From positions 1,612,001-1,676,000 of the forward strand of contig NZ_JAFBCJ010000001.1 in assembly GCF_016907675.1 (NCBI RefSeq): a stretch of 64,000 nt of DNA. Direction: 5' to 3'. This DNA is from Geodermatophilus bullaregiensis (GTDB lineage Bacteria; Actinomycetota; Actinomycetes; Mycobacteriales; Geodermatophilaceae). Positions 42,950 to 47,560 of this stretch are shown one piece after another. The first letter of the stretch is position 1. Each line of letters starts with the position of its first letter. The position numbers were made by a program, and so were the translations under genes. Below the pieces are notes generated by a model, which saw nothing but the letters and a program-made list of their open reading frames with translations, was not told the origin of the DNA and did no database searches.

Positions 42950-42954
42950 GCCAG

Positions 42955-43028
42955 TAGCGGGGACAGGATTCGAACCTGTGACCTCTGGGTTATGAGCCCA
43001 GCGAGCTACCGAGCTGCTCCACCCCGCG
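42955..43028 (-). tRNA. initiator tRNA-Met (CAU), copy 1
   Basis: A 74-nt cloverleaf without encoded CCA. The anticodon loop CTCATAA lies on a stem with three G-C pairs (GGG/CCC), and position 1 (C) cannot pair with position 72 (T); both are initiator hallmarks. The T-arm reads ACAGG-TTCGAAT-CCTGT. A second copy at 47487-47560 differs at the 49-65 pair. Confidence 0.95.
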
Positions 43029-43091: not shown

Positions 43092-44024
43092 TCAGGCGGG
43101 TGACCGCGCGCCGGCCGCCGCGGGCTCCTCCGGCCGCGGGGTCGCCGGCTCCGCGGCCCCGCCGGACGGGCGCCGCGTCCTGGCCCGCAGCAACCGCGAC
43201 AGCGCCGTCCGCTGGCCGAAGGCCGCCGTCAGCCGGTCGAGGAAGATGGCGAGCAGGACGACGGCCAGACCGCCCTCGAAGCCGGACGCGACGTCGAGCT
43301 GGGTCACCGCCCGCACCACCACCGCGCCGAGGCCGGCGGCGCCGAGCAGTCCGGCCGTGACCACCATCGACAGCGCCAGCATGATGACCTGGTTGACGCC
43401 GGCCATGATCGACGGCAGCGCCAGCGGCAGCTGGACCTCCCGCAGGATCTGCCCGGGTCGCGCGCCGAAGGCCTGCGCGGCCTCGACGACCTCCCGGTCG
43501 ACGTGCCGGATGCCGAGCTCGGTCAGCCGCACGCCGGGCGGGATGGCGAACAGGATGGTCGCCACGACGCCGGGCACGACACCCACGCCGAAGAAGAAGA
43601 CGGCCGGGATGAGGTAGACGAAGACCGGCGTCGTCTGCATGGAGTCCAGGACCGGCCGGACGACGACGCTGACCGCCCGGTTGCGGGCGGCCAGGATCCC
43701 GATGGGCACGCTGATCGCCGTGGCGATGACCGCCGCGACGAGGACCAGCGCGAGGGTCTGCATCGTCTCGACCCACAGCTCCAGCGAGACGACCAGCAGG
43801 AACGCCAGCACCGTGTAGAGCGCCAGCCCCCACCCGCGGACGAGCAGCGCGACCAGCGCGAGGACGACGATCCACACCACCGGCGGGGGCGTGGTCAGCG
43901 TGTCGGTCAGCCCGTCGACGAGGACCTGCATGACCGCCGAGATGGCGTCGAACAGCCACGGCACCGTGGCCAGCAGCCAGTCGATGAGGTCGGCCACCCA
44001 CTGTCCGAGGGGGATGTCCGGCAT
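43092..44024 (-). CDS. betaine-type ABC transporter permease
   Basis: A 310-residue ProW/OpuAB-type permease with about six helices. The binding-protein-dependent signature EVVEAAQAFGARPGQILREV with following LPLALPSIMAGVNQ is clear, as is QTTPVFVYLIPAVFFFGVG. The Pro/Ala-rich C-terminal tail is unstructured. It lies 2 bp after the ATPase gene. The substrate is a quaternary amine or similar zwitterion by family; see the TauD entry for a possible sulfur link. Confidence 0.93.
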   Translation of the reverse strand: MPDIPLGQWVADLIDWLLATVPWLFDAISAVMQVLVDGLTDTLTTPPPVVWIVVLALVALLVRGWGLALYTVLAFLLVVSLELWVETMQTLALVLVAAVIATAISVPIGILAARNRAVSVVVRPVLDSMQTTPVFVYLIPAVFFFGVGVVPGVVATILFAIPPGVRLTELGIRHVDREVVEAAQAFGARPGQILREVQLPLALPSIMAGVNQVIMLALSMVVTAGLLGAAGLGAVVVRAVTQLDVASGFEGGLAVVLLAIFLDRLTAAFGQRTALSRLLRARTRRPSGGAAEPATPRPEEPAAAGARSPA

Positions 44025-44026
44025 CG

Positions 44027-45229
44027 TCAGCCCTCCCGTCGCGCGGGGACGGCGGCCAGCGCGTCCAGCACGGCCGCCCGTGGCACCACGCCCAGCAGCC
44101 GCCCGTCGTCGTCCACGACGCCCAGGGGCACCGGGTGGCGCCCGACGAGGTGGACGAACTCGACCAGCGGGCGGTCCGGGGCGATCGTGGCGTAGTCGGC
44201 GACCAGCTCCCGCGGGCCGACGGCCGTCCGGCCCTCCTGCAGCGCGCGGGCCAGCAGGTCGTCGCGCGCCACCCCCGCGACCCGCCGGTCGCCGTCGAGC
44301 ACGTACACCCCGTTGGCCTCCGCGGCACCGAGGGTGCGCAGCACCTCCCCCGTGGACTGGCCGAGCCGGGCGGTCATCCGCGGCTCGCGCAGCAGGTCAC
44401 CCGCGGTGAGCACACGGGTCCGGTCCACGTCGGAGGTGAAGTCGGCGACGTAGTCGTCGGCCGGCGCGGAGATGATCTCCGGCCCGGTGCCCAGCTGCAC
44501 GGTCCGCCCGTCCTTGAGCATCAGGATGCGGTCACCCAGCCGCATGGCCTCGTTGAGGTCGTGCGTGATGAAGACGATGGTCTTGCGCAGCTCGGTCTGC
44601 AGCCGCACCAGCAGGTCCTGCATGTCGCGCCGGATCAGCGGGTCCAGCGCGGAGAACGGCTCGTCCATGAGCAGGACGTCGGAGTCGGCGGCCAGCGCGC
44701 GGGCCAGGCCCACGCGCTGCTGCATGCCACCGGAGAGCTCGTCGGGCCGGGCGTCGGCCCGGTCCAGCAGCCCCACCGTGCGCAGCGCCCAGTCGGCCCG
44801 CTCCCGCTGCTCGGCAGCGGCGACCCCGCGGACCTTGAGCGCGTAGGCCGCGTTCTCCCGCACGGTCCGGTGCGGGAGCAGCGCGAAGTGCTGGAACACC
44901 ATGCTGACCTTGTCGTTGCGCAGCGCCCGCAGGTCGGCGTCACCGAGCGCCCGCAGGTCCTGGCCGTCGACCTCGACCGTGCCGGCACTGGGCTCGATGA
45001 GCCGGTTGAGCAGGCGGACGAGGGTCGACTTCCCCGACCCGGACAGTCCCATGATGACGAACAGCTCCCCGCGCTCGACGCTGAAGCCGACGTCGTGGAC
45101 GGCGAGCGTGCTCCCGGTCCGCTGCAGGATCTCGTCGCGCCCGATGCCCTCCCCGGCCAGCCGCAGCGCCTCCTGCTCGCGCGCCCCGAAGACCTTCGTC
45201 AGCCCGGTCGCGCGCAGCACCGGCGCCAC
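44027..45229 (-). CDS. betaine-type ABC transporter ATP-binding protein
   Basis: A 400-residue ProV/OpuAA-type ATPase. Walker A is GLSGSGKSTLVRL, the signature LSGGMQQRVGLARALA, Walker B LLMDEPFSALDPL. The ProV-specific N-terminal insert REQEALRLAGEGIGRDEILQ is present, and two CBS domains fill residues about 280-395, which in OpuA sense ionic strength. The GTG overlaps none of its neighbours; it lies 1 bp after the binding-protein stop. Confidence 0.95.
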   Translation of the reverse strand: MAPVLRATGLTKVFGAREQEALRLAGEGIGRDEILQRTGSTLAVHDVGFSVERGELFVIMGLSGSGKSTLVRLLNRLIEPSAGTVEVDGQDLRALGDADLRALRNDKVSMVFQHFALLPHRTVRENAAYALKVRGVAAAEQRERADWALRTVGLLDRADARPDELSGGMQQRVGLARALAADSDVLLMDEPFSALDPLIRRDMQDLLVRLQTELRKTIVFITHDLNEAMRLGDRILMLKDGRTVQLGTGPEIISAPADDYVADFTSDVDRTRVLTAGDLLREPRMTARLGQSTGEVLRTLGAAEANGVYVLDGDRRVAGVARDDLLARALQEGRTAVGPRELVADYATIAPDRPLVEFVHLVGRHPVPLGVVDDDGRLLGVVPRAAVLDALAAVPARREG

Positions 45230-45230
45230 G

Positions 45231-46178
45231 TCAGCCGACCCACTCGTCGATCTGGTCGGCGTGGTCGTCGACCCACTGCCGCGCGACGTCGGCGACCTCC
45301 TCGCCGTCGACGTCGACCTGCTTCTGCATCCGCTCCATCTCCTCGACGGAGATGCGCAGGTCGACCAGCAGGTCGGCGAACCCGGGCGCCTGCTCCTGCA
45401 GCTCCGTGCTCGCGGCGATGTTCGCGCTGTAGGAGGGCATCGCGCACGCGCCGTCGCCGGTGGTCAGGCAGCCCTCGGTGTAGGGCGTGGGCTCCTCGAG
45501 CTGGACCATCTCGTACTGCGCGAAGACCGCGTGCGGGTGGTAGAGGTACAGCACGATCGGCTCCTCGCGGCTGTAGGAGTTCTCCAGCTGCGCCAGCTCG
45601 GCCGCCTCGCTGGAGACGACGTGCTCGAGCGTGATGCCGTACCCCGCGAGCCGCTTGGCGTTCTGCTCGGTGGTGATGTATCCGGGGTCGGCGTCGTAGA
45701 ACTTGTTGCCCAGCTGCTCGGCGTAGTCGTTGAGCTGCGTGACGCTGGTCAGCCCCTCGAGCGGGCCGCCGGGCTCGACGGCGTAGGCGGGCACGAACCA
45801 GCCCTGCGCGGCGTCGCCGTAGGTCTGCGAGACGATCTCGACCTGCTCGGCGGCGCTGTCGGCGAGCTCCTGCTGGTTGGGCAGGGCCACCTCGGTCAGC
45901 AGGTCGATGTCCCCGCGCTGCGCACCGGCCCACGCCGCGGCGGGGTCCAGCTGCGTGGTCTGCAGGGACGTCACGCCCAGATCGGGGTTGTCGGCGGCGA
46001 TCTCGCCGAGGATGGCGTTGGTCAGGCCGGCGGCCGTCCAGCTGTACTGGGCGGCCTGGACGGTGATCCCCTCCCCACCACCGGCACCCTCCTCGGCGCT
46101 GCACCCGGTGGCGGTCGCGGCGAGGAGGGCGGCCAGCGCCACCGCGGACGCTCGGGGACGGATCGAGGTGCGCAGCAT
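45231..46178 (-). CDS. betaine-type ABC transporter substrate-binding lipoprotein
   Basis: A 315-residue lipoprotein with signal peptide and lipobox ATATGCSAEE (lipid-modified Cys at 26). The ProX/OpuAC family layout shows in QYSWTAAGLTNAILGEIAAD, DLLTEVALPN, GWFVPAYAVE and IVLYLYHPHAVFA; Trp/Tyr residues in these segments would form the ligand cage. The first gene of the transporter operon, just below a terminator that follows the TauD gene. The ATG at 46178 follows GAGAGAAG. Confidence 0.93.
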   Translation of the reverse strand: MLRTSIRPRASAVALAALLAATATGCSAEEGAGGGEGITVQAAQYSWTAAGLTNAILGEIAADNPDLGVTSLQTTQLDPAAAWAGAQRGDIDLLTEVALPNQQELADSAAEQVEIVSQTYGDAAQGWFVPAYAVEPGGPLEGLTSVTQLNDYAEQLGNKFYDADPGYITTEQNAKRLAGYGITLEHVVSSEAAELAQLENSYSREEPIVLYLYHPHAVFAQYEMVQLEEPTPYTEGCLTTGDGACAMPSYSANIAASTELQEQAPGFADLLVDLRISVEEMERMQKQVDVDGEEVADVARQWVDDHADQIDEWVG

Positions 46179-46234
46179 GGGGTCTTCTCTCGTGGAGGCG
46201 CCGGGTGGGCACGCCGGCGGAGGTGGTCGTGCGA

Positions 46235-46270
46235 CGAGGCGCAGGTCCCCTCGGAGGGACCTGCGCCTCG
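46235..46270. terminator. terminator between TauD gene and transporter operon
   Basis: A 15-bp perfect stem CGAGGCGCAGGTCCC and complement with loop CTCGGA, 43 bases after the dioxygenase stop. The transporter may therefore have its own promoter or depend on read-through. Confidence 0.65.
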
Positions 46271-46313
46271 CCGTGCGGTCAGTTCTCGGTACGAGCGTCG
46301 TCCACCTAGGTGG

Positions 46314-47216
46314 TCAGGCGCCAGTCGGACCGATCGGCTCGTCACCCCGGAGCGTGATGCGGTGCATGACCCGCCGCTGGTCGCCGTAGTCGCGGTTGGC
46401 GTAGTGCACGGTCGAGCGGTTGTCCCACATGACGACGTCGCCGACCGACCACCGGTGCCGCACGACGTGCTCCGGCTTGGTGATGTGGGCGTAGAAGAGG
46501 TCGAGCAGGTACCGGCTCTCGGCGTCGGAGACGCCCGCGATGTGGGAGACGAAGCCGGGGTTGACGAACAGACCCTTGCGGCCGGTCTCCGGGTGCACCC
46601 GCACGACCGGGTGCTCGACGGGGACGAACGCCTGGAACTGCTCGCTCTCCCACTTCGTCCGCGCCTCGCGCTGGGCGAGGTAGTAGCCGAACTCCCGCGT
46701 GCCGTCGTGCACCGCGACCAGCTGGTCGGCCAGGCGCCGCACCGGCTCGCTGAGCGACTCGTAGGCGAGCTGGAGGTCGGCCCACTGGGTGTCGCCACCG
46801 GTGGGCGGCAGGACGACCGCCCGCAGGACCGAGCCCAGCGGCGGGCGGCGGACGAAGGTGACGTCGGTGTGCCAGACGTCGGCGAAGCCGCCCTGGGCGC
46901 TGTCGAGGGCGTAGATCTCCGGGTGCTCCTCGTCGACGCCCGGCACCACCGGGTGCGACTCGGTCACCTCGCCCAGCCGCCGGCCGAGCGCGACCTGGCT
47001 GTCGGGGTGCAGGTCGTGCTGGCCGGAGAAGAACAGCACCTTGTGCTCGGCGAGCGCGGTGCGGATGGCGCGGACCTGGTCGTCGGTGACGCGGGCGAGG
47101 TCGACGCCGTGGACGCGGGCGCCGAAGCGGGGCTCGAGCCGCTCGATGTCGAGGACGCCGCGAGCGGGCGCGAGGGCGGGGGCAGGGGCGGTCGTGGGTG
47201 CTGCGAGCAGGGTCAC
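46314..47216 (-). CDS. TauD/TfdA family Fe(II)/2-oxoglutarate dioxygenase
   Basis: A 300-residue dioxygenase. The iron triad is His116 and Asp118 in DVWHTDVTFV with His285 in RRVMHRITLRG, and the 2-oxoglutarate Arg follows in ITLRG. Members oxidise taurine, alkylsulfates or phenoxyacetates; sulfonate or sulfate ester cleavage releases sulfite or sulfate. A Cys-containing leaderless leader peptide precedes it by 45 nt, and a betaine-type transporter follows, so an organosulfur substrate is likely. The GTG lies after GGAGACCTCCC. Confidence 0.92.
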   Translation of the reverse strand: MTLLAAPTTAPAPALAPARGVLDIERLEPRFGARVHGVDLARVTDDQVRAIRTALAEHKVLFFSGQHDLHPDSQVALGRRLGEVTESHPVVPGVDEEHPEIYALDSAQGGFADVWHTDVTFVRRPPLGSVLRAVVLPPTGGDTQWADLQLAYESLSEPVRRLADQLVAVHDGTREFGYYLAQREARTKWESEQFQAFVPVEHPVVRVHPETGRKGLFVNPGFVSHIAGVSDAESRYLLDLFYAHITKPEHVVRHRWSVGDVVMWDNRSTVHYANRDYGDQRRVMHRITLRGDEPIGPTGA

Positions 47217-47261
47217 GGGAGGTCTCCGGGCGTTGCTGGGGGATGGCGGGCTGGACGGACG

Positions 47262-47351
47262 TCAGGCCGTACAGAGCGCGCTGGCGCACCGCAGCAGGTC
47301 GACGTGGCGGCGCTCCACGAGCGCAAACCGCACAATCCCGACCAGAGACAT
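47262..47351 (-). CDS. leader peptide (putative cysteine-responsive attenuator)
   Basis: A 29-residue peptide, MSLVGIVRFALVERRHVDLL then RCASALCTA. The pattern RRHVDLLR-x-x-SALC matches the short leader peptides found before sulfur assimilation genes of actinobacteria, where Cys codons near the end stall ribosomes when cysteine is scarce. Its ATG lies 7 nt after TACGGT (47364-47359), so it is leaderless. It ends 45 nt before the TauD start. Confidence 0.85.
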   Translation of the reverse strand: MSLVGIVRFALVERRHVDLLRCASALCTA

Positions 47352-47447
47352 GGGGATTACCGTAGCGGGCGTCCCTGGTGCCGTGTCAGCAGGGTCACGT
47401 CGATCGCGCCGGGAGGGCGGCTCCTCGTACGAGGAGCGGGAGAACGC
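47352..47447 (-). promoter_or_regulatory. promoter of the TauD leader and an 18-bp palindrome
   Basis: TGACAC at 47388-47383 and TACGGT at 47364-47359 are 18 bases apart, a good vegetative promoter. Upstream, GCTCCTCGTACGAGGAGC at 47420-47437 is a perfect palindrome 56 bases above the -10 box, a candidate operator. Confidence 0.55.
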
Positions 47448-47481: not shown

Positions 47482-47486
47482 CGTGG

Positions 47487-47560
47487 TAGCGGGGGCAGGA
47501 TTCGAACCTGCGACCTCTGGGTTATGAGCCCAGCGAGCTACCGAGCTGCTCCACCCCGCG
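47487..47560 (-). tRNA. initiator tRNA-Met (CAU), copy 2
   Basis: A 74-nt tRNA, the same sequence as copy 1 except for the compensating pair at 49-65 (G-C here, A-T in copy 1), which keeps the T-stem intact. GGG/CCC anticodon stem and unpaired position 1 mark it as initiator. CCA is not encoded. Confidence 0.95.

Follow-up and report, generated by a model that had tools for sequence, protein, structure and literature searches.

An attenuation mechanism has been reported for the Cys-rich leader peptides of Mycobacterium smegmatis (Canestrari 2020, as cited in the accessible parts of PMC13236596 and PMC9031893). Cys leaders of Mycobacterium, P. acnes and B. longum (PMC1262725) share with the leader described here Cys codons near the stop and no terminator, and differ from it in their runs of Cys codons and in their location at cys operons and cbs, tauD not being named in the accessible part of that paper. 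In the literature, as far as the accessible parts go, proof of a response to cysteine was found for poly-Cys leaders and for no HVDL leader with one or two Cys, and among titles and beginnings of abstracts no tauD gene under a leader peptide and no leaders in Geodermatophilaceae were found. This family lies outside the mycobacteria, where leader-based control by cysteine has been tested.

The locus studied here belongs to Geodermatophilus bullaregiensis and lies in a stretch of 64,000 nucleotides (positions 1,612,001 to 1,676,000 of contig NZ_JAFBCJ010000001.1), hereafter the window. Its leader region has the following parts:

47364-47359, minus strand: -10 hexamer TACGGT (TANNNT), 7 nt ahead of the leader ATG
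47351-47262, minus strand: leader ORF of 29 codons plus TGA, encoding MSLVGIVRFALVERRHVDLLRCASALCTA, with a putatively leaderless start
47310-47324, minus strand: codons 10-14, a possible small RNA hairpin (GCGCTC/GAGCGC) subjected to pairing tests
47288-47286, minus strand: Cys codon 22, TGC, conserved within the tauD class
47273-47271, minus strand: Cys codon 27, TGT, the proposed sensor codon
47217-47261, minus strand: spacer between leader and tauD, 45 nt with 25 C and 9 G, including the Shine-Dalgarno (SD) sequence
47227-47224, minus strand: tauD Shine-Dalgarno sequence GGAG, read directly from the sequence
46314-47216, minus strand: TauD/TfdA-type Fe(II)/2-oxoglutarate dioxygenase of 300 amino acids with a GTG start (Pfam TauD, 223 bits)

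An earlier note, made from the letters alone, had proposed this ORF as a leaderless, cysteine-sensing leader of tauD. Direct reading confirmed its coordinates for the leader, the 7 nt between TACGGT and the start, and the 45-nt gap between the leader stop and the tauD GTG at 47216, and the peptide ends in RRHVDLLRCASALCTA, as had been stated. In S. lividans the distance from the -10 box to the transcription start is 4-9 nt, with a mean of 6.3 (accessible part of PMC8079986), and we infer that the first base of the tauD mRNA is the A of the leader ATG. The idea of leaderless members fits the TANNNT spacing of the tauD leader, but that spacing occurs in just 71 of 197 leaders of the family, so not all of them are leaderless.

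The comparison of leaders across Geodermatophilaceae orthologues that the earlier note proposed was run. TauD was detected at E<=1e-60 in 24 of 112 family genomes, and 19 of these 24 proteins, the one in the window included, share at least 83% identity; two of the 19 (L025 and L028) lie at contig ends, in such a way that their upstream DNA is unreadable. The leader is present in all 17 readable orthologues, the window counted, every one of them with TANNNT exactly 7 nt ahead of the ATG and with the core RRHVDL or RRHIDL. A second set, whose species may overlap with the first, consists of 12 named Geodermatophilaceae loci at 80% identity or more; leader and TANNNT at 7 nt were found in 11 of the 11 readable ones, which fall in Geodermatophilus, Modestobacter and Blastococcus. 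One relative has its tauD orthologue broken into two frames (L034/L035), the result of either a frameshift or an error in the assembly. A plasmid search with the tauD stretch gave partial matches, with none of 527 records covering 80%.

Constraint on the leader is also seen at the synonymous level. With the locus carrying the split tauD left out (16 of the 17 orthologues), synonymous codon differences amount to 228 of 2685 (0.085) in the leader and 6325 of 30309 (0.209) in tauD, and even the lowest 29-codon window of tauD, with an average of 0.102, stays above the leader. Ahead of the leader, the mean frequency of the majority base is 0.91 at positions -14 to -1 and 0.51-0.63 farther upstream.

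The peptide scores 33 bits against the NCBIfam profile NF042934 ('putative leader peptide', cis_reg_atten), above the curated cut-off of 27 and over 18 of the profile's 19 positions; against NF042936 (Ms4527A Cys-rich leader) it scores 23.1 bits, below the cut-off of 45. The earlier view that such a gene is too short for usual gene calling is therefore out of date, since NCBIfam already models these leaders. In a six-frame scan of the whole genome with NF042934 the leader was found with E 1.3e-6 (31.6 bits) among ten matches at E<=10. Five of the ten lie below E 0.004, three of them over the cut-off (tauD leader included) and two below it; the other five, with E from 1.7 to 8, were discarded as chance. 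At E<=0.01, 107 of 108 Geodermatophilaceae genomes had a match and none of 14 control genomes did; at the loose limit of E<=10, 10 of the 14 controls also matched somewhere, always below the cut-off. Of 396 genomes sampled evenly across the phylum, at least 28 matched at E<=0.001, with at most 22 candidates scored per genome. A chance ORF, for which the short length speaks and nothing else, is already refuted by the conservation, and the profile scores, the control genomes and the synonymous constraint also stand against it, leaving this explanation a negligible probability.

Across all named tauD loci the leader is found less regularly. Among these 80 loci, 78 had upstream DNA that could be scanned (mostly 3 kb, minimum about 1 kb), and 22 of the 78 showed a leader-like match, three of which lie nearly 3 kb away and perhaps belong to another gene. 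The link between leader and tauD is lineage-bound, because in the other 56 of 78 named relatives no leader was found in the upstream DNA scanned, mostly 3 kb. Pseudonocardia and Rhodococcus have their own leader variants ahead of tauD, which are not leaderless by the TANNNT test. Among the more distant paralogues of the family, three (L029, L032 and L033) follow, by reading, a frame for an ABC-type ATPase and have no leader within 1.5 kb, and the leader of two others (L030 and L031) is of the VDH type.

The five leaders of the genome itself precede genes of the cysteine dioxygenase, tauD, DUF4395, TauE/SafE sulfite exporter and nitrite/sulfite reductase classes, these classes being clusters of downstream proteins each named by the Pfam of one representative. 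Across the wider family, 208 loci were scanned and 203 leaders retained (5 were dropped for low score), of which 199 are distinct; the 197 with a downstream ORF fall into 25 downstream-gene clusters, among them:

Sulfite/nitrite reductase: 46 of 197 leaders
Cysteine dioxygenase: 24 of 197 leaders
TauE: 21 of 197 leaders
tauD: 20 of 197 leaders
Rhodanese: 15 of 197 leaders
DUF4395: 14 of 197 leaders
PLP-dependent enzyme: 10 of 197 leaders
Clusters without a sulfur name: NAD-binding (9), ABC with NIL (7) and symporter (3)

The sulfur link that had been suggested for these peptides thus holds for four of the five leaders of the genome, which stand ahead of sulfur-named Pfam classes, and the fifth precedes a DUF4395 gene, for which a link to sulfur would be hypothetical; as judged from these gene classes, the link appears strong though not complete. 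Because of the NF042934 match, the conservation among orthologues and the company of sulfur-class genes, we consider it highly probable that the tauD leader is a conserved, cis-acting attenuator leader of the known cysteine type. The earlier interpretation was therefore right in substance, supported by the conservation and the sulfur-linked genes.

The most striking property of the family lies in a single codon. The last conserved Cys is encoded by TGT in 187 of the 199 distinct leaders and by TGC in 9, the residue being absent in 3; in L072 and L190 a stop codon replaces it, and the L190 motif has no Cys at all. Background TGT among Cys codons is 1 of 83 in the called genes of the window, 33 of 330 in own-family loci and 16 of 155 in other families, counts that may be lowered by a gene caller favouring GC3-rich frames. 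In 188 ORFs downstream of the leaders, taken from clusters with at least two members, TGT makes up 6 of 255 Cys codons in the own family and 10 of 82 in others. The remaining Cys codons within the leaders are 67 TGC and 2 TGT in the own family, and 80 TGC and 36 TGT in other families, where both codons occur within poly-Cys runs. With weighting by distinct peptide, the share of TGT is 0.94 versus 0.09. It is the majority in 35 of 36 groups formed by family and downstream-gene class, with one tied, the lineages of these groups being assigned by hand and their orthologues not independent. Named tauD homologues have TGT in 20 of the 20 leaders with a Cys in that column, and two more have it one codon further on. 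The leaders were found with a protein profile, so the search was blind to codon choice. No UGU bias in such leaders was found in the titles and beginnings of abstracts covered by the literature search.

Both Cys codons named beforehand, 22 and 27, are present in the tauD leader, but only the second, TGT, is family-wide: Cys at the place of codon 22 occurs in 17 of 17 tauD leaders and in just one other among the 197. We propose from this comparison that codon 27 (UGU) is the sensor codon. The genome gave 47 tRNA hits at E<=0.001, with one tRNA-Cys, of anticodon GCA; UGU therefore needs wobble reading. That all the actinobacterial VDL-type leaders would sense cysteine through one rare codon, UGU followed by a non-G base and read by tRNA-Cys(GCA) wobble, in such a way that the codon sets the threshold, is a generalisation to which we give even chances.

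An explanation of TGT other than decoding would be that it is kept for RNA pairing or for an RNA-binding protein. It gains from the base that follows: C accounts for 158 of the 180 non-stop cases, T for 13, A for 8 and G for 1, with this C spanning Arg, Pro, Leu, His and Gln codons, while codon first bases are generally 0.45 G and 0.30 C; the bases on the 5' side of TGT vary, however, and no conserved pairing partner was found, so that we regard such an RNA signature as rather doubtful. Decoding of UGU also has to be weighed against arrest of the ribosome by the nascent peptide itself, with cysteine supply being secondary. Residues far from the last Cys are near-invariant (among 197 leaders, R in 197 and 196, D in 196, L in 194 and H in 150), which pure codon sensing would not need, and part of this invariance is selection, because a motif of this kind served to find the leaders. 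The sharpest codon anomaly nevertheless falls on the Cys codon, which points to decoding, and most other columns show ordinary codon use, the deviating ones being Ser at column 13 (AGC, 0.86 versus 0.29) and the non-His residues of column 5; peptide arrest is thus unlikely. In column 5, where the His of HVDL is replaced, GCA reaches 0.47 and ACA 0.83, versus backgrounds of 0.03 and 0.02 (Ala and Thr, respectively).

The composition of the spacer was analyzed in the 126 of 197 leaders that have an SD and 35-130 nt of spacer. C exceeds G in all 126 (mean C 0.525, G 0.261) and in 65% of 46 control 5' regions (p=8e-13, with related sequences treated as independent); in the tauD spacers the values are 0.617 and 0.178. 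Such a bare, C-rich spacer could load Rho, in such a way that transcription would be stopped before or early in tauD unless a stalled ribosome or a coupled RNA polymerase prevented termination. Besides the composition, the lack of an intrinsic terminator and of a conserved SD helix speaks for Rho-dependent attenuation: a consensus scan found no intrinsic terminator in the spacer and one weak site inside tauD, and an SD-sequestering helix was unsupported, its pairing partners differing among the 17 orthologues. Rho was also proposed for mycobacterial cys leaders, in a prediction that its authors call rather weak (accessible part of PMC1262725). Composition alone, however, is no proof of Rho binding; a ribosome at codon 27 would reach roughly as far as the stop codon and leave the spacer uncovered; and for M. 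smegmatis, attenuation of translation is what has been reported (as cited in the accessible part of PMC13236596). We hold the Rho-dependent explanation to be a serious possibility, with the chances leaning against it.

Folding predictions were made for 127 leaders. The energy needed to open the start region fell from 9.60 kcal/mol in the free RNA to 8.88 with a ribosome on UGU27 (a drop of 0.72), versus 9.32 to 9.29 (0.03) with shuffled spacers (p=6e-5, related sequences again treated as independent). The test does not discriminate, because placing the ribosome on the stop codon instead lowers the energy just as far, to 8.88 kcal/mol. The 17 tauD leaders need 7.20 when free, 6.32 with the ribosome at UGU and 6.67 with it at the stop codon. 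These predictions fit weakly with a stall-dependent release, and make no choice between release and Rho. The RNAalifold consensus reaches -31.6 kcal/mol, with a covariation term of -0.1 and one of 30 pairs changed on both sides. In codons 10-14, the hairpin register 28-33/37-42 pairs in 94% of cells with no covariation; shifted by two, it pairs in 81% with 2 compensatory pairs (one sequence each), a count reached by 3 of 500 shuffles, and this predicted hairpin is taken as a lead only. Local fold z-scores gave no hairpin common to all leader classes, and Rfam at gathering scores gave nothing but two tRNAs. A hungry-codon frameshift at UGU-C into tauD was also considered and rejected, the +1 frame being open as far as the downstream start codon in 81% of the 126 cases and in 80.5% with shuffled spacers; in the tauD class the start codon occurs in all three frames relative to the leader, with no preference.

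The surroundings of tauD contain the following features:

46231-46273, minus strand: very strong hairpin that separates tauD from the gene for an OpuAC-type binding protein, with a GAGGCGCAGG core alike among orthologues
43092-46178, minus strand: genes for an ABC transporter of the glycine-betaine type, downstream of tauD and encoding an OpuAC binding protein, a CBS-containing ATPase and a permease
42954-43028 and 47484-47560, minus strand: tRNA-Met (CAT) genes flanking the block of tauD and ABC transporter genes

The enzyme scores 287.5 bits against PRK09553 (taurine dioxygenase), below its cut-off of 313, and within the PDB it is equally close to E. coli TauD (227.7 bits) and AtsK (227.5 bits). 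Alignment with the PDB TauD shows the blocks WHTDVTF, HYAN and RRxMHR, which we take to hold the Fe and 2-oxoglutarate ligands, to be kept, and V, A and E, as read by eye, at the places of TauD Y73, N95 and S158, presumably the taurine-binding positions. The substrate is probably an organosulfur compound. The binding protein gene adjoins tauD in 17 of 19 loci and was not found in the examined DNA of the other two (L020 and L024); where the two genes are both present, the hairpin occurs in 16 of 17 loci, L025 being the one without it. Searched as a stricter pattern, the hairpin is matched exactly nowhere in the genome, and the looser core is matched once in the window. The hairpin is probably the end of the tauD transcript, and the leader would control tauD alone. 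As for the ABC transporter, a sulfonated osmolyte would fit as its substrate. The two tRNA-Met genes differ at 2 of 75 bases plus an encoded CCA, the copy at 47484-47560 lying upstream of the leader; no tRNA genes were found in the examined DNA of 18 other orthologous loci, two of which end near tauD.

We favour a cysteine-type attenuator with codon 27 as its sensor, which could work as follows. The ribosome would load on the 5' end of a tauD mRNA that begins with the leader ATG. With plentiful Cys-tRNA it would reach the leader stop and depart, after which the leader RNA would refold with the C-rich spacer bare, a state in which the tauD start would be poor and/or the transcript cut by Rho. 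Under cysteine shortage it would wait at the UGU of codon 27, read by tRNA-Cys(GCA) via a G-U wobble, preventing the 3' half of the leader from folding and allowing tauD expression, and the enzyme would then release sulfite from organosulfur compounds. The final step is the least certain part of this scheme, and that it acts on translation start is a proposition for which we see about as much chance of its being right as wrong. If the sensing through UGU is true of the whole family of leaders, the choice of this one codon would identify the sensor and delimit a sulfur regulon directed by the ribosome, with tauD among its members in Geodermatophilaceae. The leader itself places a TauD-type enzyme in a likely cysteine regulon of Geodermatophilaceae. 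The rare sensing codon may also show how such switches are tuned. The UGU signature (187 of 196) is the part most worth following up. It offers a cheap and direct test of codon choice in starvation sensing: if selection acts on decoding, a synonymous UGC would be expected to change the response.

Compared with the described systems, the tauD leader agrees with the NF042934 family in its score over the cut-off and in its same-strand position 45 nt ahead of a typical gene class, and the tauD class differs from that family by the added Cys at codon 22. With the poly-Cys leaders of M. smegmatis (NF042936), as far as the accessible accounts describe them, it shares a VDL-type core, Cys close to the C-terminus, a place ahead of sulfur genes and leaderless promoter spacing; those leaders have a consecutive Cys run, whereas the two Cys of the tauD leader (22 and 27) are separated. 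The uORFC-8-2 upstream of cysS in Rhodobacterales (accessible part of PMC8632094) is likewise a Cys-codon uORF and a ribosome-mediated attenuator, but it has a U run as for an intrinsic terminator, and UGC is dominant in it in contrast to the UGU of the tauD leaders. A classical transcription attenuator has an intrinsic terminator, unlike the tauD spacer in the consensus scan. What the present analysis adds is the TGT at the last conserved Cys, the excess of C over G in the spacers and the one tRNA-Cys(GCA) found.
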